Part shown: positions 8,413 through 20,721 of the stretch, piece by piece
How positions within the stretch are numbered: position 1 is the first letter of the stretch
Layout of the letters: every line of letters starts with the position of its first letter
The notes under the pieces: generated by a model
What the model was told of the DNA's origin: nothing
The model's input: only the letters and a program-made list of their open reading frames with translations
Database searches by the model: none
Assembly (NCBI RefSeq): GCF_000378145.1
Contig: NZ_KB899282.1
Span: forward strand, 62,001-126,000
Reading direction: 5' to 3'
DNA length: 64,000 nucleotides
DNA from: Saccharibacillus kuerlensis DSM 22868
GTDB lineage: Bacteria; Bacillota; Bacilli; Paenibacillales; Paenibacillaceae
Translations under genes and position numbers: made by a program

Positions 8413-8546
8413 ATTTATAAGAGTTAAAATGTTTCGCAAAATCTTTTTGTGCATCTTCAAAAAAACCCTAATTTCTCTTCCGTTCCTGCCGATATATTAA
8501 ATTAATCCGTGTTGTCGGATTTAAGACTAGGGAGGTTATGCACACC

Positions 8547-10856
8547 ATGAATAAAAAACATCTGTCCATTGTATTGTCTTCCCTGATCGCCCTGCCCCTG
8601 CTGTCTCCAGCAGGAACAGCGCCCGTCTATGCGGCGCCTACAGCAGAAGGGCCTGACCAGGAAGTCGTAATTGTATATAAAAACGAAGACGGCAAGGATG
8701 CAGCGCTCGAACAGAGCGTCGAAGTGCAACATGAATTTGAAACAGTGCCTGCCGTATCGGCTACTGTAAGCGCCGAAGGTCTGCAGGATCTTGTGCAGAA
8801 TCCGGATATCGCTTATGTCGAACGCAATGTCACATTCCAATTGACCAATACGGATGTTCAAGGATACAGTGTTACACCTCCTGCGAGTGCTTCTGAACAG
8901 CAGAACTGGAATTACCAGCAGGTATCGCCAGAAACTATGTGGAGCCAGGGATTTACGGGAGAAGGCGTTAAAGTCGCAGTAGTCGATTCGGGCATTGCCT
9001 CGCATCCTGAACTGAAAATTGCCGGAGGCATCTCTACTGTCGGCCTTGAAACGAATGCGAATTACGACGACGATAACGGACATGGTACGCACGTTGCCGG
9101 AATCATCGCTGCAGACAGCGGAGTTGGTGAGGTAACCGGCGTAGCCCCTAACGTATCGCTTTACGCTGTCAAAGTACTGGCTGCCGATGGCAAAGGTTCT
9201 CTGATCGATGTGCTGGAAGGCTTAGATTGGGCAATCCAAAACAACATGGACATCATTAACCTGTCGCTTGGCGGAGATCAAGACTCTCAAGCTCTCCACG
9301 ATATGGTAGACAAAGCTTACAATCAGAATATTCTTGTCGTTGCTTCCGCCGGCAACAGCGGAACAGTAGAAAATGTGGATCAAGATACCGTCAATTATCC
9401 GGCCAAATACGACAGCGTCATTTCTGTGGCTGCTGTTGATCAAAACCTGAATCATGCAGTCTTCTCTTCTTCTGGTCCAACAGTTGAATTCTCCGCTCCG
9501 GGTGTAATGATCCACTCAACATACCCGATCAGCAAGGGGCACTCGCATGTTTGGATGGACGGCACTTCCCAAGCCGCTCCGCATATAGCGGGCGAACTGG
9601 CTCTGCTGAAAGAGAAAAATCCATCGGCTTCCGCCGCTACTCTGCGGACACTGCTGAAAAACTATGCTGTGGATCTCGGTGCTGAAGGCCGTGATCAGCT
9701 GTACGGAGAAGGCTTCATAACGTTTAAGTCGAAGACCGACACTACTGCACCGGCGGAAGTCAGTGGCGCAGCCGTTACCTCAAGCACGACGGACAGCCTC
9801 ACGCTGGGCTGGACACTGCCGGCCGATTATGACTTCAAAACAGTCAACGTATATGCCGGATCTTCTTCCGAGCCGACAACGGTAACAGAAGTCACTTACC
9901 AGGCCGCTGGCCTGACGCCAGATACAGCTTACGATTTCCGTCTGACTACAGTCGATACGGCTGGTAATGAGTCGGCAGGCATCACCGTTTCCGGCAGAAC
10001 ACAGCCGGCACCGCAACCCGCAGCGCCTTCTACTGAAGAGAGAGTGACTTCGGAACCTGCTCCTCAGCCGGCTCCGGTTCAGTCAGCTCCGGCAGAAAGC
10101 ACTCCGGCTCCATCTGCACCTGCAGAAGCCATTCAGATGCCGGTTGTCACAACACCTGCTCCTTCGGGCGGCAGTGCACAGATTCCTGCTGGCGGTGGTG
10201 GTGGCGCAGCTCCTGCACCGGCTCCAGCTCCTGCTCCTGCCCCTGCCCCTGCACCAGCCAAGCCGGCTCCAGTAGCAGCGAAACCGGCTCCGGTAGCAGC
10301 AAAGCCGGTCGTACAGGCACCAGCTCCGGCTCCATCCGTGCCGACCAAAACTCCGGCCGCACTGCCTTTCTCGGACATCCCTTCGACATTCTGGGGCCGC
10401 ACTACAGTCTCATGGGCCTTTGAACGGGGACTGATCAAAGGTTATGGAAACGGACAGTTCAAACCGAGCGCTACAGTCACAGAATCCGAATTCCTGGCTA
10501 TGCTCATCCGTGCCTTCGAACCGGAAGTGAAGAACTCCACTTCGGGAACATGGTCGAACACGTACTACGCTCGCGCGAAACAGCTGAATCTGCCGGTTAA
10601 AGGTTCTTCTTCCAAGGCAGCACGCAGCCAGAACCTGACACGCATTCAGGTCGCCGAGATGATAGCTTCCGCCAACGGCATGAATCTTAAAGGAAACGAT
10701 GCAATCCGCTACCTGCTTTCCACAGGCATTGCCCAGGGCAGCAGCAAAACCGAAAAAACAATCACTTCGTTCAAAGGAAGCAGCACGCTTACTCGAGCTG
10801 AAGCCCTTCAATTCATCAAGAACCTGACGGAAAAAGGCAAAGGCAGCCTGCAGTAA
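8547..10856 (+). CDS. Secreted subtilisin-like serine protease with FnIII and SLH domains
   Basis: 769-residue surface protease. Order: signal peptide (~1-29), inhibitor-I9-type propeptide (~38-97), S8 domain with Asp147 (VVDSGIASHPEL), His179 (NGHGTHVAG) and Ser341 (GTSQAAPH), a fibronectin-III module (~400-490), an Ala/Pro/Lys-rich wall-spanning linker (~493-608), then S-layer-homology repeats starting at LPFSDIPSTFWGR. SLH domains bind pyruvylated cell-wall polymer, so the enzyme should be tethered. The active-site motif has Gln where most subtilases have Met (GTSMAAPH). Start 8547 is preferred (GGGAGG 11 nt upstream); ATG 8538 is only 2 nt from it. Confidence 0.92.
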   Translation: MNKKHLSIVLSSLIALPLLSPAGTAPVYAAPTAEGPDQEVVIVYKNEDGKDAALEQSVEVQHEFETVPAVSATVSAEGLQDLVQNPDIAYVERNVTFQLTNTDVQGYSVTPPASASEQQNWNYQQVSPETMWSQGFTGEGVKVAVVDSGIASHPELKIAGGISTVGLETNANYDDDNGHGTHVAGIIAADSGVGEVTGVAPNVSLYAVKVLAADGKGSLIDVLEGLDWAIQNNMDIINLSLGGDQDSQALHDMVDKAYNQNILVVASAGNSGTVENVDQDTVNYPAKYDSVISVAAVDQNLNHAVFSSSGPTVEFSAPGVMIHSTYPISKGHSHVWMDGTSQAAPHIAGELALLKEKNPSASAATLRTLLKNYAVDLGAEGRDQLYGEGFITFKSKTDTTAPAEVSGAAVTSSTTDSLTLGWTLPADYDFKTVNVYAGSSSEPTTVTEVTYQAAGLTPDTAYDFRLTTVDTAGNESAGITVSGRTQPAPQPAAPSTEERVTSEPAPQPAPVQSAPAESTPAPSAPAEAIQMPVVTTPAPSGGSAQIPAGGGGGAAPAPAPAPAPAPAPAPAKPAPVAAKPAPVAAKPVVQAPAPAPSVPTKTPAALPFSDIPSTFWGRTTVSWAFERGLIKGYGNGQFKPSATVTESEFLAMLIRAFEPEVKNSTSGTWSNTYYARAKQLNLPVKGSSSKAARSQNLTRIQVAEMIASANGMNLKGNDAIRYLLSTGIAQGSSKTEKTITSFKGSSTLTRAEALQFIKNLTEKGKGSLQ

Positions 10857-15060: not shown

Positions 15061-15777
15061 TCAAATGTCCCGAATTGGCAGATACAAATCCGCTTCGCAG
15101 TAATCCTGCCGTGCCAGCGAAGCGTCAATGTACTCAAAATGATGGCCGTGCGCCTGCTCGTACGGCGAGCGCGTAATCCATTCGTCCATGTAATTCCAAA
15201 TATCGTTCAGCTGATGAATAGTTAGATGTTCAGGGTGAAAACGCCCGATATACTTAAATACCGCATATTTGCCTGCCGGAATCTCGGCCGTGTCCCAATC
15301 GTGCTTCAAACCTTCCAATGAAGACACTTCGGCGGAAGGCAAATAGTCGGTCGCATTCGGTCCGTGTTCCGGCGGATACAGCGTAAGACCGATATATACA
15401 TTTGGCTTCAGCTTATTGGGAATCTTGGCGTATTCTCCATAGAAAAAAGAAACGCCGTGCGCGTTGGCTGTATGATGCTCAAAATTATCCGCAATGGCAA
15501 TTGTAGCTTTTCGACCGGCATACAAACTTCGCGGCTTCATAACAAACGTCGGTTCAAACACCACACCGCGCCGGATCTCTGTAAATCTCGATGGATCGCA
15601 GCGTTCGACAAGTTGAATCTCCGCAGTGCCCCGGCGAAACTGTGCGGGCGTCACTCCGAACTGCCGCTTGAATGCACGGATATACGACTGCTCGTGGTCG
15701 AATCCGTAACAGAGCGCCGTATCCAGAACCGTGCTTCCATTCCTTCCGCTTAACAGATCATGCGCGCTTGCCGACAA
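15061..15777 (-). pseudogene. 5'-truncated AraC-family regulator with GyrI-like effector domain
   Basis: The open frame begins with TTG in the middle of the AraC DNA-binding domain. It keeps the second helix-turn-helix (TALCYGFDHEQSYIRAFKRQFG, split here as TALCYGFDHEQS and YIRAFKRQFG) and the GyrI-like ligand-binding domain (~85-238), but the first HTH of about 50 residues is missing, cut by an in-frame TGA just upstream. Only 51 bp separate it from the stop of the next gene, leaving no room for the lost part. I therefore call it a decayed gene; an expressed effector-binding fragment cannot be excluded. Confidence 0.7.
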
Positions 15778-15828: not shown

Positions 15829-17145
15829 CTATTCCTTCGCTGCTGCGGAACCCGCTTCAACTGCCGCGAAGGAATCGTTTACGACACGAAGAGCCTCCGT
15901 ATGAAGATAAACATTGTTGGCAGCCGTGACCAACACCGCGATCAGCAGCAGTCCGGTAATGATTTTCTTAAACAAGCCCTGTCTCAATCCGATCGTCCAG
16001 ACCCCGCCAAGCAGGAAGAACGCGAACAGGTAATGACCCGCGTACAAATACAGATCATATTGATAAACAGCAAGTCCGAACCCGATCACCAAATGCAGCA
16101 GCGCTGCAAATCCGATATAGGAAGCTGCTATCCACACTTCCCGGCTGCGGATTCCGCGTACGAATCCTGCCGCCGCAAGCAGCAGAATAAACAGGCCGGT
16201 CAGATGAACGTGCAGGGGGTAACCGCGTGCAATATCGGTGACGAACGCTCCCGAATCCGGATTCAGCAGATGAATGTAAGGAGTCAGAATCGGATTGATT
16301 CCCAACATATAGAATACGGGACCATGCACATTCGGATTAAACAGCGTCGCATATCTCATGCCCCCGCCATGCAGCCCGTCCATCCAGCCGCTGATCCACA
16401 TTTTGCCGAAGCAGAGATACTGCAGCCCTGTCGCTGCAGCCGCAATCAATATGGCGAGCAGAACAATCCGGATGAAGCGGTTCAGCGATTTCTTGCTTCG
16501 CCAAGCCTTCATGTTTCCCAGCAGCGCCACTCCAAACGGAATGGCATTGGTCGAAGTTAATCCGAACTGAAGGGCCGCGAATCCCGCATTCGGCCAGATC
16601 CGTACCTCTTCCCCTTCCGCTTCCCGTGCTCTGCCATACTGCAAATACACTACGGACAGAAGAATCCCAAACTGCACATATGGATAAGAGTCGGGGATCA
16701 GCGAAGAGAAGATCAGGTAGGAGCTCAATCCGAACAAAGCCGAGAACAGCAGAGGATGGAGCAGCCGATCGTCCTTTTTACTCAAATAGATCAGCAGCAG
16801 CGCAGCGGAAGCCCCGTTCAGCAGCGACTGCAGGATCAAGAAGAACAAATTGCCTCCCCAAGCGTCTGCTGCCATACCGAGCGGAACCGCCAAAAGGGAC
16901 ATCAGCGGATGAATAACCGAGGAGCTGTTGGTGCCATAGTACATAGAAGGATCAAAATTAAACAGATTCAACGGAAACTGTGCCACGAAAAAAGGATTAT
17001 AGCTCTGCAGCATCTCCGTATGATCACTCATATAGCTTATGTAAGGCAAATTCAGCAGCACATAAAAAAGCGCGAGGGCCGCGCATAATCCCGCCGCCAC
17101 CGCGTTCGTCCGCCGCTGTGCAAACAAGTATCGAACAAAATTCAT
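15829..17145 (-). CDS. Multi-spanning GT-C-like membrane glycosyltransferase candidate
   Basis: 438-residue protein with roughly 10-11 hydrophobic segments. After the first helix an extracytoplasmic loop reads ISYMSDHTEMLQSYNPFF; acidic residues in that place are typical of GT-C enzymes, which use polyprenyl-phosphate sugars outside the membrane. I cannot name a defined family. The start at 17145 has GGAGGT 5 nt upstream; a longer frame to 17205 is less likely. It is last in the UbiA-HAD-SMR-SMR cassette, 53 bp after the second SMR gene, so a pentosyltransferase using that lipid-linked sugar is inferred. Confidence 0.65.
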   Translation of the reverse strand: MNFVRYLFAQRRTNAVAAGLCAALALFYVLLNLPYISYMSDHTEMLQSYNPFFVAQFPLNLFNFDPSMYYGTNSSSVIHPLMSLLAVPLGMAADAWGGNLFFLILQSLLNGASAALLLIYLSKKDDRLLHPLLFSALFGLSSYLIFSSLIPDSYPYVQFGILLSVVYLQYGRAREAEGEEVRIWPNAGFAALQFGLTSTNAIPFGVALLGNMKAWRSKKSLNRFIRIVLLAILIAAAATGLQYLCFGKMWISGWMDGLHGGGMRYATLFNPNVHGPVFYMLGINPILTPYIHLLNPDSGAFVTDIARGYPLHVHLTGLFILLLAAAGFVRGIRSREVWIAASYIGFAALLHLVIGFGLAVYQYDLYLYAGHYLFAFFLLGGVWTIGLRQGLFKKIITGLLLIAVLVTAANNVYLHTEALRVVNDSFAAVEAGSAAAKE

Positions 17146-17198
17146 AACCAACCTCCACAGCCTATTCTTTTTACCGATACCACTTACTCTTTCAACAA

Positions 17199-17522
17199 TT
17201 ACCAAACGAGCAAAAGCAATCCTCCCAAAATAAACAAAATGCCCAGCCAGCGCAGCCTATTTACCTGTTCACCAAACCGGAAGCGGGCGATCAGAAGCGT
17301 CCATACGTAAGTCAGCGCATTGGCAGGCAGCACAACCGTAAACGGCAGAAACTGCAGCAGCACAATGTTCAAGATCGCTCCCGTCCCGTAAAAGCCCAGG
17401 CCCAGCAGCAGATGAAGACGATTTTTCCCGTCTGCATACAGCTTCAATCCGGCTCCTCCCATCGCTCCGCACAGCGTCATAGGAAGCAGCAGCACAGCGA
17501 TCCAGCTATCGACGTTCCACAC
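17199..17522 (-). CDS. SMR/EmrE-like four-helix membrane protein, subunit 2
   Basis: 107 residues, four hydrophobic helices, no soluble domain: the size of small-multidrug-resistance/DMT subunits. The start is GTG at 17522, lying 17 bp inside the previous SMR gene and lacking a clear ribosome site, so translation is probably coupled. A co-encoded pair of four-helix proteins suggests a heterodimer like ArnE/ArnF, which flips a lipid-linked aminosugar. Next to a UbiA-type phosphoribosyltransferase the likely cargo is polyprenyl-phosphate-pentose; this is inferred. Confidence 0.7.
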   Translation of the reverse strand: MWNVDSWIAVLLLPMTLCGAMGGAGLKLYADGKNRLHLLLGLGFYGTGAILNIVLLQFLPFTVVLPANALTYVWTLLIARFRFGEQVNRLRWLGILFILGGLLLLVW

Positions 17523-17844
17523 TTGTGAGTGTCACCCCGATTCCAAGCAGCAGGACCGCGGCCATCTTCTGCAGCGTAATGTCTTCACCGAGCAGGAAAT
17601 GTCCGTAGACAAGCGCGAAAATATAACTGACACACATTAGCGGATAAGCGACGGACAGCTTCTCGATCGCAAATGCCCGGATCATCAGAATTGCGCCAAG
17701 TCCATAGCAGGTAAAACCGATGCCCAGATAGATCCAATTCTCTAATCCCCATTTCCAGAACAGCTGCCCGGTCGCGGTTAGAAAAGCGGAGATCAGCATC
17801 AGCCATTTTCCGGTATGTCGGGCCTTTTCGTTCACAGATTCCAT
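17506..17844 (-). CDS. SMR/EmrE-like four-helix membrane protein, subunit 1
   Basis: 112 residues, four hydrophobic helices, with an EamA/SMR-like helix 3 (EKLSVAYPLMCVSYIFALV) and the acidic GEDITLQK turn before helix 4. It overlaps the HAD gene upstream by 13 bp and the second SMR gene downstream by 17 bp, so the three are translated as one unit. Likely half of a heterodimeric flippase for the lipid-linked sugar made by the neighbouring UbiA enzyme; a drug-export role is the alternative. Confidence 0.7.
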   Translation of the reverse strand: MESVNEKARHTGKWLMLISAFLTATGQLFWKWGLENWIYLGIGFTCYGLGAILMIRAFAIEKLSVAYPLMCVSYIFALVYGHFLLGEDITLQKMAAVLLLGIGVTLTSVERR

Positions 17845-18470
17845 CGCAGCTCCTCCGCTCCCGGTACCCGCCGATTGACGAAGTACCGGTGCCGCACCAG
17901 CTCCATGACCGGCATATCGGACAGCGAATCCGAATAAGCACAGGATTGATCGGCGTCGATCTCAAGCCCTTTTTCCTCCAAATACTGCTGAATGCGCCGC
18001 ACTTTCTCTTCGCCTTTGCAGTTGGGACCGTCGATCCGGCTTGTGTAACCGTGTCCGTCCGCTCCCGGTTTCAGCCGTGTGCCGATCACATCGTCCACCC
18101 AAGGGAGCCGTCCGAAATACTGAGCGTATGCATGAGGTGAAGCCGTTACGAGCAGCACATGATAGCCCTCTTCTTTGCGTCGGCGCATCTCTTCTTTTGC
18201 CTGCGGGTAGATCGTCTGGGACAGATGGGATTCGTAAAAATGTTCCAGATCGGACTCCGTCATACGGTTAATCGCATAGAAATAACTTTGCTTGGCCGTC
18301 TCGGCGCGCATCAATCCCAGTTTGAATAACACACTGTGACCTGCAATCAGCGGCAGCCGTAACAGACCCGACGGCGAACGGCGGATTCCGTAACGGACAA
18401 ATTCGAACATGGAATCGCGGCCGATCACTGTCTTGTCGAGATCGAAAATGGCCATTTTCACTTTTGTCAC
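17832..18470 (-). CDS. HAD-superfamily subfamily IB phosphatase
   Basis: 212-residue HAD hydrolase. Motif I is FDLDKT with nucleophile Asp10 and acid/base Asp12, motif II lies in VLLVTASPHAYAQ, and motif IV is YSDSLSDMPV. Start taken as GTG at 18470 (AAGGAAGG 7 nt upstream); the ATG at 18503 has no site. Encoded between the UbiA phosphoribosyltransferase and the SMR pair, it probably removes the 5-phosphate from polyprenyl-phosphoryl-5-phosphoribose, the step done in mycobacteria by an unrelated phosphatase. That assignment rests on context. Confidence 0.8.
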   Translation of the reverse strand: MTKVKMAIFDLDKTVIGRDSMFEFVRYGIRRSPSGLLRLPLIAGHSVLFKLGLMRAETAKQSYFYAINRMTESDLEHFYESHLSQTIYPQAKEEMRRRKEEGYHVLLVTASPHAYAQYFGRLPWVDDVIGTRLKPGADGHGYTSRIDGPNCKGEEKVRRIQQYLEEKGLEIDADQSCAYSDSLSDMPVMELVRHRYFVNRRVPGAEELRWNL

Positions 18471-18527
18471 TGATTTTCCTTCCTTTCCAAACGTCTTTCT
18501 CACAGCACTGCCTGCACTCAGCTGCGA

Positions 18528-19442
18528 TTACTCCAGAAAAGTAAAAATACATACGACACTGATCAGGTACAGCAGCACCGTAATCAGGATGGGCTTGTCC
18601 TCGAACAGAACTTTATCCGGTGACCCGCCCTTGTTCTTCATATGAATCAGGTACAGATAGCGGAACATGCCGTAAATGACAAGCGGGATGGTCCACATTA
18701 GATGAATGCTGCGGTCGGCCGTGAACGTGAACAGCGAATAGCTAATAATGGCCGCTGTTGTTACGATTGTGTTCATCTGATCCAGCAGCACAATGGAATA
18801 ACTGTCCAATACTTTGCGATGCGAACCGGTGTCGTTCTGCAGCAGCACCAGCTCATGCCGGCGCTTGCCGATCGCCAGGAACAGCGAGAGCAGCAGCGTA
18901 CACAGCAGAAACCACGGTGTAAACGGTACCTTGATCAGGACACCCCCGGCAATCGCTCGCAGCACAAAGCCAGCCGCTACTGTCATGACATCGAGAATGA
19001 CCACATGCTTCAATTTAAAAGAGTAAGCGACATTCAGTCCAAAGTAAATGACACACAATCCGCCGAAGAGCGGATTCAACAGAAAAGCTGCGGTCAGCGA
19101 TACAGCCAGCAGCAGACCGCCGAAACCGAGCGCTTGGGCGGGGCTTACTCTGCCGGAAGCAATCGGTCGATTCCGCTTGACCGGATGACTGCGATCGCGC
19201 TCCCGATCCGCCGTATCGTTCAATATGTACACACAGCCGGCAACCAGGCTAAAGAGCAGGAAGCCGAGTATCGTTTCTCCTACGGTATACAGGCTAATTT
19301 TCTCGTAGGAGAAGAGCAGCGCCGCAAACAGCAGCAGGTTCTTGGTCCACTGCTTGGGACGCAGCAGCAGAAGCAGACCTCCGATTGCATGGCTTGTCTC
19401 GGCAGAATCGGAAGATTTCAAATCTCGATCGAACGTAGGCAC
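18528..19442 (-). CDS. UbiA-family polyprenyl-phosphate phosphoribosyltransferase (DPPR synthase-like)
   Basis: 304-residue membrane protein with about eight to nine helices. Motifs match the mycobacterial decaprenyl-phosphate phosphoribosyltransferase (Rv3806c/UbiA) branch rather than quinone enzymes: RPKQWTKN at 28-35, the Asp-rich motif NDTADRERD at 75-83 followed by HPVKRNRPIASG, YSFKLKH, VLRAIAGG, and GKRRHEL. This branch couples PRPP to a polyprenyl phosphate. The start is GTG at 19442 with AAGGAG 8 nt upstream. First gene of the leftward cassette. No DprE1/DprE2 epimerase gene is seen here, so the final sugar may remain ribose. Confidence 0.87.
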   Translation of the reverse strand: MPTFDRDLKSSDSAETSHAIGGLLLLLRPKQWTKNLLLFAALLFSYEKISLYTVGETILGFLLFSLVAGCVYILNDTADRERDRSHPVKRNRPIASGRVSPAQALGFGGLLLAVSLTAAFLLNPLFGGLCVIYFGLNVAYSFKLKHVVILDVMTVAAGFVLRAIAGGVLIKVPFTPWFLLCTLLLSLFLAIGKRRHELVLLQNDTGSHRKVLDSYSIVLLDQMNTIVTTAAIISYSLFTFTADRSIHLMWTIPLVIYGMFRYLYLIHMKNKGGSPDKVLFEDKPILITVLLYLISVVCIFTFLE

Positions 19443-19764: not shown

Positions 19765-20721
19765 ATGAACACCAATATGAGCATGCCCTCTTCCGATCAG
19801 ACTTCCGATTTCGAAATTCGGCCATTTTATGAAAGTGACTTTCCGGCCCTCGGCGCTTTTTACAAACAAACAGCGGAAGAACGCCGCGTCATCTTCTGGT
19901 GGGTCGGAGATTGCAGCAATTGGCCGAATGTCATCTGCGCTTTCGAACATGGAAAGATGATTGCCAAAGGACAGGTCGATATCTTCAGCGTTATGCCTTC
20001 TTCAGCCGATCGGAATAACAAGCACCGCATTTTCTTCAATTTAAAAACACTGCCGGAACGCAGCAGCGATACTGTACTGCTCGGAGCCGTATACCATACA
20101 CTATATGAGCGAGCCTTGGAGCTTAAACGGCAGCTGCCGGACACGCACGGTGCATTGCTCTGCTTTGGCAACTATGCCGAGGAGACCGAGAATACTGGAT
20201 ACTTTACCGACCTGCATGGATTTTTCCCACTGAATAAACAGTTCCGTATGCATCGAGATCTGTCGGCAGCAGAACCGATTGGAGCGATTCCCCTGCCCGA
20301 AGAATACACATGGCGGATCTTCGATACTTTGACGGAGAAACAGACGGAGGAGTATCTGGCGCTTGATCTGGAGATTTGGCCGGAAACGCCGATCGGTGTG
20401 AAGCGTCTGCTGGAGCTCTCGTCCCAACCGAATTGGCGCCTGCTGCGGATCGAAGCGGACGGCGAAACAGCAGCGGGTCTGATGTATTGGATCGAAGACG
20501 GAAACGTCGGCGCGATCGAGGAAGTATTCACGCGCGAGCCGTACCGCCGCCGCGGCTTAGCTTCCGCTCTGCTCACCCGAGCACTTGAGGAACTCCGCGA
20601 AGCAGGCTGCGAAGAAGTCGAGCTGGATGTCGAGACACTGAACGATTCGGCGCTGCACTTGTATACTTCGGCCGGATTTTCCATCGTCACGGAAGAACGC
20701 CGCTACGGGATAGAACTTTAA
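19765..20721 (+). CDS. GNAT-family acetyltransferase
   Basis: 318 residues. The C-terminal part (~220-315) is a GNAT fold with the acetyl-CoA loop REPYRRRGLASALLTRALEEL and the closing LHLYTSAGF strand-helix. The N-terminal ~170 residues, which include EERRVIFWWVGDCSNWPN, look like a second, degenerate GNAT-type half. AAAAGGAGG precedes the ATG by 7 nt. It is followed after 17 bp by the phosphotransferase gene, so the two form an operon, perhaps for small-molecule or antibiotic modification. Substrate unknown. Confidence 0.8.
   Translation: MNTNMSMPSSDQTSDFEIRPFYESDFPALGAFYKQTAEERRVIFWWVGDCSNWPNVICAFEHGKMIAKGQVDIFSVMPSSADRNNKHRIFFNLKTLPERSSDTVLLGAVYHTLYERALELKRQLPDTHGALLCFGNYAEETENTGYFTDLHGFFPLNKQFRMHRDLSAAEPIGAIPLPEEYTWRIFDTLTEKQTEEYLALDLEIWPETPIGVKRLLELSSQPNWRLLRIEADGETAAGLMYWIEDGNVGAIEEVFTREPYRRRGLASALLTRALEELREAGCEEVELDVETLNDSALHLYTSAGFSIVTEERRYGIEL

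Follow-up and report, generated by a model that had tools for sequence, protein, structure and literature searches.

Lipid-linked ribofuranose transfer has been described for Citrobacter youngae O1/O2 by Kelly et al. 2024 (PMC11127046): the synthase, phosphatase and transferase steps were shown with a protein in which a HAD phosphatase is fused to a polyprenyl-phosphate phosphoribosyltransferase (PPPRS) and with a GT136 enzyme; the MATE flippase was assigned from bioinformatics and context, its activity, as the authors say, not being directly shown. Species reported there for the Citrobacter enzyme are farnesyl-P-ribose-5-P (m/z 513) and farnesyl-P-ribose (m/z 435). Gram-positive three-component examples are mentioned in the same source, as is a Bacillus with additional epimerase or GT-C genes. 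The locus analysed here is a cassette of five closely packed minus-strand open reading frames (ORFs) at 15829-19442 of a 64,000-nt stretch of Saccharibacillus kuerlensis DSM 22868 (contig NZ_KB899282.1; "the window" denotes this whole stretch, and all positions are those within it). An earlier reading of this DNA (the original prediction) had placed five leftward genes there, and all of them are present on the minus strand. The five genes probably form an operon by which a surface molecule receives, outside the cytoplasm, a pentofuranose, most likely ribofuranose. Computation supports the protein families, their conserved motifs, the predicted folds of the UbiA and GT-C proteins, the opposite charge bias of the small protein pair, the linkage of the genes and the gene fusions.

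Protein families of the cassette

The curated model, the active-site residues and the predicted fold all assign the UbiA-superfamily protein to the PPPRS of the Rv3806c type. It scored 280.2 bits with the NCBIfam model of decaprenyl-phosphate phosphoribosyltransferase (DPPRS), NF008977 (cut-off 234), and 227.1 bits with NF008978 (cut-off 207), and stayed under the cut-offs of NF008976 (187.1 bits, cut-off 474) and of NF006088 (176 bits, cut-off 351), in the profile of which a HAD part precedes a UbiA part; among haem and 4-hydroxybenzoate models the highest score was 44 bits, and the remaining models reached at most 56. In the search of PDB sequences, E values below 0.001 were obtained only for the phosphoribosyltransferase entries 8j8j and 8j8k. 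The comparison with the Rv3806c type that had been suggested with the original prediction was run with a predicted structure (predicted local distance difference test, pLDDT, 81; predicted TM score, pTM, 0.75), the closest fold of which was 8j8j_A (E 4e-12, TMq 0.80; next best UbiA other than DPPRS, 3e-6). In all these comparisons the protein groups with the phosphoribosyltransferases and not with quinone or haem prenyltransferases, and the three previously named motifs (RPKQWTKN, NDTADRERD, GKRRHEL) are all found in its sequence. N75-D76-x2-D79-x3-D83 and K193-R194-x2-E197 are invariant in 15 family sequences including that of the window; matched by spacing, N75, D76, D79 and D83 (loop II) and R194 and E197 (loop IV) correspond to the residues N247, D248, D251, D255, R366 and E369 of Citrobacter ORF15 examined by Kelly et al. 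(PMC11127046).

The second protein is a HAD-IB family member and a candidate phosphoribose phosphatase: it matched TIGR01490 (HAD-IB) with 125.5 bits (cut-off 98.3), and the HAD catalytic motif residues were conserved in 46 of 46 sequences (motif II: T in 43, S in three). NF006088 was matched weakly, at its HAD end (17 bits).

Both small four-helix proteins, SMR1 and SMR2, matched EamA of the DMT/SMR superfamily with 31.5 bits (cut-off 28.2). Their charge bias, calculated as Arg plus Lys in the termini and loop 2 versus loops 1 and 3 with the loops placed by hand on the window sequence, was N-in for SMR1 in 52 of 53 sequences, the remaining one being a tie, and N-out for SMR2 in 54 of 54. Adjacent genes with opposite Arg/Lys bias serve in PMC9574504 to recognise SMR heterodimers as fixed antiparallel pairs; SMR1 and SMR2, biased in this manner, look like such an antiparallel heterodimer. 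The conserved opposite bias thus strengthens the SMR pair postulated in the original prediction.

The last protein matched PF19558 (DUF6080) with 56.4 bits (cut-off 27) and is predicted to have a GT-C fold. A model calculated from a 20-sequence alignment (pLDDT 83, pTM 0.88) retrieved PglB first in Foldseek (E 4e-4, TMq 0.44), followed by OST/Pmt4 relatives (Pmt4: TMq 0.55). In VIA-align it was superimposed on ALG12 (Z 23.3, root-mean-square deviation 3.5, 319 aligned), on AftB with bound donor analogue (Z 19.3, 5.3, 352 aligned), on ArnT with undecaprenyl phosphate (Z 18.4, 4.2, 332 aligned) and on AftD (Z 18.2, 4.2, 315 aligned); the earlier description of the protein as GT-C-like is upheld by these searches, in which GT-C enzymes including AftB came out on top. 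With the GT-C profile no match to PDB sequences was found up to E 10. An HHalign comparison of the Paenibacillaceae and Prevotella DUF6080 proteins (probability 42%, E 2.6e-4) paired the FDP (D85), HP (H99) and PD (D172) motifs and the histidine of AGHY/TAHW (H391), numbering being counted from TTG at 17205; D85, H99, D172 and H391, invariant in 20 of 20 Paenibacillaceae GT-C sequences, are candidate catalytic residues of DUF6080.

In the proposed pathway, the PPPRS would convert phosphoribosyl pyrophosphate (PRPP) to polyprenyl-P-ribose-5-P, from which the HAD-IB protein would remove the 5-phosphate; the SMR1/SMR2 antiparallel heterodimer would flip the resulting polyprenyl-P-ribofuranose to the outer face, where the DUF6080 GT-C protein would pass the sugar to an acceptor outside the membrane. 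For this cassette, co-transcription and each of the four activities are inferred, as are the sugar, the direction of transport and the acceptor.

Table 1. Features of the cassette and of its two neighbours in the window.
Feature	Position	Strand	Basis or remark
UbiA-superfamily PPPRS (Rv3806c type), 304 aa	18528..19442	-	curated model, residues, fold
HAD-IB phosphatase, candidate phosphoribose phosphatase	17832..18503	-	TIGR01490, catalytic motifs
SMR/EamA-like subunit 1 (SMR1; N-in by charge bias)	17506..17844	-	candidate flippase half; EamA match
SMR/EamA-like subunit 2 (SMR2; N-out by charge bias)	17199..17522	-	candidate flippase half; EamA match
DUF6080 protein, predicted GT-C fold, candidate pentofuranosyltransferase	15829..17205	-	PF19558, model fold
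AraC/GyrI-like regulator	15061..15777	-	left neighbour, outside the system; shorter at N-terminal side than in congeners
GNAT acetyltransferase	19765..20721	+	right neighbour, outside the system

The frames of HAD and SMR1 overlap by 13 nt and those of SMR1 and SMR2 by 17 nt. As read from the sequence, GTG 18470 and ATG 17145, each with a Shine-Dalgarno-like stretch in front, are the likelier starts of the HAD and GT-C genes, respectively. The Pfam E values were 5e-29 (UbiA), 2e-35 (HAD), 2.5e-7 (EamA, for each small protein) and 3e-15 (DUF6080). The G+C content of the cassette (0.51-0.53) lies inside the range of its surroundings (0.48-0.59); three promoter-like sites were counted against 4.2 expected and eight terminator-like sites against 6.3 expected, and a search for repeats at the cassette ends gave merely short imperfect ones. 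About 5 kb from the cassette (8538-10856) the window encodes a subtilase that carries fibronectin III and SLH domains; S-layer-type anchoring is therefore probably present in S. kuerlensis.

Linkage, distribution and origin

Within a sample of 148 Paenibacillaceae genomes, a strong PPPRS match (E < 1e-60) was present in 41; 33 of these also had a full-length GT-C gene, in all 33 at a spacing of 26-4303 nt from the PPPRS gene. In the other 107 genomes, where a strong PPPRS is lacking, no full-length GT-C was found; G107 among them contained a fragment. When named genomes were scanned with the GT-C alignment, 60 loci were obtained, all counts being conditional on a GT-C match: by name, 57 belonged to Paenibacillus and one each to a 'Paenibacillaceae bacterium', Saccharibacillus and Brevibacillus. 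The complete five-gene order was present at 44 of them, the frames of which were not all checked to be intact, and at 46 if a locus with HAD divided between two ORFs (L105) and another with a HAD-SMR1 fusion (L138, P. kobensis) are counted. As the five genes stand in the same order at 44 of 60 named loci, the cassette is not a chance arrangement. The expectation of the original prediction that the genes travel together in relatives is borne out by these 44 loci and the 33 genomes; its five-protein set is mostly complete there, a minority of loci being without the phosphatase or the SMR pair. Single loci were reduced in other ways: at L115 the start of UbiA is joined to the end of HAD and nothing else of the two is left, at L137 UbiA, an SMR2 remnant and GT-C remain, at L152 a broken GT-C adjoins UbiA, and at L121 (Brevibacillus) GT-C stands by itself.

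In the P. amylolyticus/pabuli group, 24 Paenibacillus loci have the cassette with lspA-region genes on one side and a pyrimidine operon on the other (names judged from sequence); the cassette therefore occupies different sites in different groups. The pyrimidine operon, which is beside the cassette at L095-L114, L116, L118, L120 and L124, encodes a PRPP-consuming pathway, and the leftover GT-C fragment of G107 (L089) has a similar location. The damaged cassettes at L115 and L082 adjoin transposase genes (DDE_Tnp_1). In another Paenibacillaceae genus (L074, L075, L081, L093) a PPPRS gene is accompanied by a single SMR-like gene; at L074 they are followed by two large membrane proteins that match DUF6080 below the threshold.

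Concerning the S. kuerlensis copy, the GNAT gene at 19765 was matched in all 16 genomes of the genus, with an identity of 42-65% in the other 15. When these 16 loci were inspected with 1.5-kb flanks, UbiA/HAD occurred only at those of the window and of G910; five had the AraC gene and no cassette genes, and the nine others had neither. A strong UbiA match was absent from the 13 congeners tested directly (G909 was outside this test). The AraC frame extends upstream beyond the beginning of the window ORF in four congeners, and an AraC homolog was not found at locus L094 of Saccharibacillus, where the GNAT side is shared. This arrangement is most simply read as an insertion of the cassette within the genus, with loss of the N-terminal part of the AraC regulator. 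Among named relatives, Saccharibacillus sp. CPCC 101409 is the nearest (UbiA 83%, GT-C 62%).

In a class sample of 398 genomes, GT-C was found in 24, mostly of the family of the window; six belong to one genus, the Brevibacillus locus included, and several copies are decayed. A genome of another family (G305) carries UbiA-SMR1-SMR2-GT-C without HAD on a 5.9-kb contig. GT-C genes of the Brevibacillus type were seen at L121, L190, L191 and L193 and in G328, G432 and G465, several as fragments. The B. formosus GT-C groups, fully supported, as sister of a Paenibacillus copy, which suggests horizontal transfer followed by decay. No phage copies of GT-C were found in the search.

In a phylum sample of likewise 398 genomes, 43 had a PPPRS over the cut-off; among 14 controls, ten gave sub-threshold matches and none passed. 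PPPRS is common in Bacillota, and its neighbours are varied: they include SMR-like, GtrA and LPG_synthase_TM proteins, GT-C candidates of the PMT_2 or DUF6080 type and genes resembling DprE1/DprE2. Of 42 loci scanned, L282, L284 and L285 were dropped, no UbiA ORF being detected. DUF6080 matches were obtained in eight genomes of the phylum sample, of which four represent Paenibacillaceae cassettes and two (G881, 28.8 bits; G751, 17.3 bits, cut-off 27) lie near a PPPRS; G546 and G173 were also sub-threshold. In G881, of another family of the phylum, a HAD-GtrA fusion (L247, 5422-6411) stands beside PPPRS and DUF6080. The gene set was also not limited to Firmicutes, the frame in which the original prediction had put it: Prevotella sp. 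oral taxon 299 (L319, 7016-10553) has the order PPPRS, HAD, GtrA, DUF6080 (7e-179), its PPPRS scoring 225.9 bits (cut-off 207). The Prevotella DUF6080 protein had no match in viral contigs, and on plasmids only its own record matched. A plasmid search with PPPRS gave 16 records, every one below 60% identity; two were examined, and in Lactococcus plasmid pLLF27D (L320) PPPRS-HAD-GtrA lies in a polysaccharide cluster with an LCP protein and adjoins a 533-aa protein without a Pfam match.

We lean slightly towards regarding DUF6080 as an unrecognised family of GT-C pentofuranosyltransferases common to Bacillota and Bacteroidota, which would be part of a compact PPPRS-phosphatase-flippase-DUF6080 unit with GtrA and the SMR heterodimer interchangeable, and would put ribofuranose on a surface glycan or protein of the carrier Paenibacillaceae.

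Acceptor, sugar and flippase

Several observations weigh against a ribofuranose operon of five cooperating genes. GT-C is missing from eight of the 41 PPPRS genomes of the family sample; HAD is absent at six of the 60 named loci (L128, L131, L140, L141, L144, L151), and UbiA and GT-C stand alone at four more (L125, L126, L132, L134). The cassette-type HAD is confined to cassettes (full-length in six of 19 genomes, a fragment in one, none in 12) and was not found genome-wide in the 10 genomes of the HAD-less and the UbiA/GT-C-only loci, so that the phosphatase and the SMR pair are there dispensable or replaced. At Brevibacillus-type loci GT-C occurs without a PPPRS across the 15-17 kb examined, the remainder of the genomes not being searched. 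The pairwise distances of the five proteins are correlated (r 0.89-0.98, 45 full-length sets), a value obtained without a housekeeping control. The small proteins do not reach the ArnE/ArnF thresholds (SMR1, 24.8 bits with the ArnF model versus 99; SMR2, 39.8 bits with the ArnE model versus 92), and in PMC9574504 the lipid-type SMRs of its genome survey are all singletons, yet functional pairs are known. Finally, none of the genes next to the cassette was recognised as coding for an acceptor.

An Rv3807c-like PAP2 protein (DUF212) was considered as stand-in phosphatase at the HAD-less loci and was judged uninformative: matches occurred in nine of 21 genomes, including the query's own (G057). 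They were weak (32-41%) in four genomes with UbiA and GT-C only, strong (57%) in HAD-less G520 and lacking in five other HAD-less genomes with an SMR pair; a weak match was also obtained in HAD-positive G525 and strong ones (57-58%) in G036 and Brevibacillus G510.

As to the acceptor, a protein (S-layer, pilin or flagellin) in place of a wall polymer is doubtful, although a possibility of some weight: protein-glycosylating enzymes, PglB and PMT, are among the GT-C fold relatives, arabinosylation of Pseudomonas type IV pilin has been proposed (reported in PMC11127046), and the SLH-domain subtilase indicates that S-layer-type proteins exist. On the other hand, no conserved target-like neighbour was present in the 14 largest flanking-gene clusters, and PPPRS-HAD-GtrA of the Lactococcus plasmid sits in a polysaccharide cluster.

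For the sugar, no DprE1 ortholog was found in the S. kuerlensis genome (E 1e-6 and 22% over 173 residues for the best match; DprE2 was not searched), and arabinose formation via DprE1 was set aside at this level of similarity; ribofuranose is therefore the simplest product and appears the likeliest sugar. The remark of the original prediction that no DprE1/DprE2 gene is in view and that ribose may be the sugar holds for DprE1 at ortholog level, the DprE2 part being outside the search. Transfer of an epimer by the same lipid route, D-arabinofuranose or xylofuranose supplied through epimerase genes not linked to the cassette, is unlikely: the cassette contains no epimerase gene (DprE2, a single xylose-type epimerase and other epimerases were not searched for genome-wide), and although weak DprE1 matches occurred in 16 of 19 genomes searched, none of the 18 besides the query's own was judged to carry an ortholog (best match, 24% over 398 residues, G516). 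In its favour, the GT-C of Kelly et al. takes ribose and xylose donors (PMC11127046), and PPPRS genes stand beside DprE1/DprE2-like genes in related bacteria. These loci, from Paenibacillaceae and other Bacillota, are L086 (9059-11163; 499.5 bits with the DprE1 model, cut-off 500, and 197 with the DprE2 model, cut-off 250), L265, L266 and L267; their gene content suggests a lipid-linked arabinofuranose in the respective bacteria.

It is quite improbable that the SMR pair has another role and that the ribolipid is moved by a GtrA, MATE or LPG_synthase_TM transporter. The pair is missing where UbiA and GT-C stand alone, and GtrA or LPG_synthase_TM proteins occur at other PPPRS loci; however, the pair sits inside the gene set with overlapping frames and has opposite, fixed charge biases, and HAD forms fusions with SMR1 in one lineage and with GtrA in a second. 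According to these fusions SMR1 and GtrA would fill the same slot, and two separate phosphatase-flippase fusions support both assignments.

The reading of the UbiA protein as a common quinone or haem prenyltransferase with unrelated neighbours has next to no chance of being correct and was discarded: apart from the superfamily it falls in, the model scores (280 versus 44 bits), the PDB and fold matches to 8j8j/8j8k and the linkage with the cassette genes all contradict it.

Comparison with known systems

For the ribofuranose cassette as proposed here, no set from Paenibacillaceae was found in the open-access literature searched, in line with the original prediction; the kind of pathway is known from PMC11127046. 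The literature searched contained no paper mentioning DUF6080 and no report of furanosyl pentose on the Paenibacillus surface; among the matches listed for Paenibacillus ribofuranose and Saccharibacillus wall ribose, none looked relevant. The cassette provides DUF6080 with a candidate function and predicts a furanosyl pentose at the surface of many Paenibacillus species.

In Bacillus and Listeria, the CsbB-GtcA-YfhO systems that glycosylate teichoic acids (PMC7389260) resemble the cassette as Gram-positive combinations of a lipid-P-sugar synthase, a small flippase and an extracellular transferase, but transfer hexose or GlcNAc from UDP-sugars and use another synthase and a YfhO-type transferase. 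ArnE/ArnF, the flippase of undecaprenyl-phosphate-aminoarabinose, shares with SMR1/SMR2 the pairing of small four-helix proteins, a weak sequence similarity and a pathway in which a GT-C enzyme transfers from lipid to acceptor; the scores of the latter remain under the curated cut-offs, and the lipid-linked sugar is a different one. The mycobacterial decaprenyl-phosphoryl-arabinose pathway, as outlined in PMC11127046, has the homologous Rv3806c, a proposed SMR-type flippase (the pathway includes Rv3789) and GT-C transferases (Emb/Aft); the cassette, in contrast, has a HAD protein instead of Rv3807c and a single GT-C, and no ortholog-level DprE1 was found.

Closest is the Citrobacter youngae O1/O2 three-component system, which, as far as described in PMC11127046, has the same PPPRS catalytic residues, a HAD phosphatase, a flippase, a GT-C and ribofuranose without an epimerase. 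It differs in that HAD is fused to PPPRS and separate in the Gram-positive S. kuerlensis, and in that a candidate flippase, the EamA/SMR-like pair, holds the place of the MATE protein. The Citrobacter GT-C founded GT136; that of S. kuerlensis is a DUF6080 protein with a predicted GT-C fold. The kind of pathway is thus known; new are the stand-alone phosphatase, the SMR pair replacing MATE and the DUF6080 GT-C. The gene set would put every step of lipid-linked ribose transfer on its own protein, and the phosphatase and flippase steps are therefore separately testable, unlike the fused phosphatase of Citrobacter.

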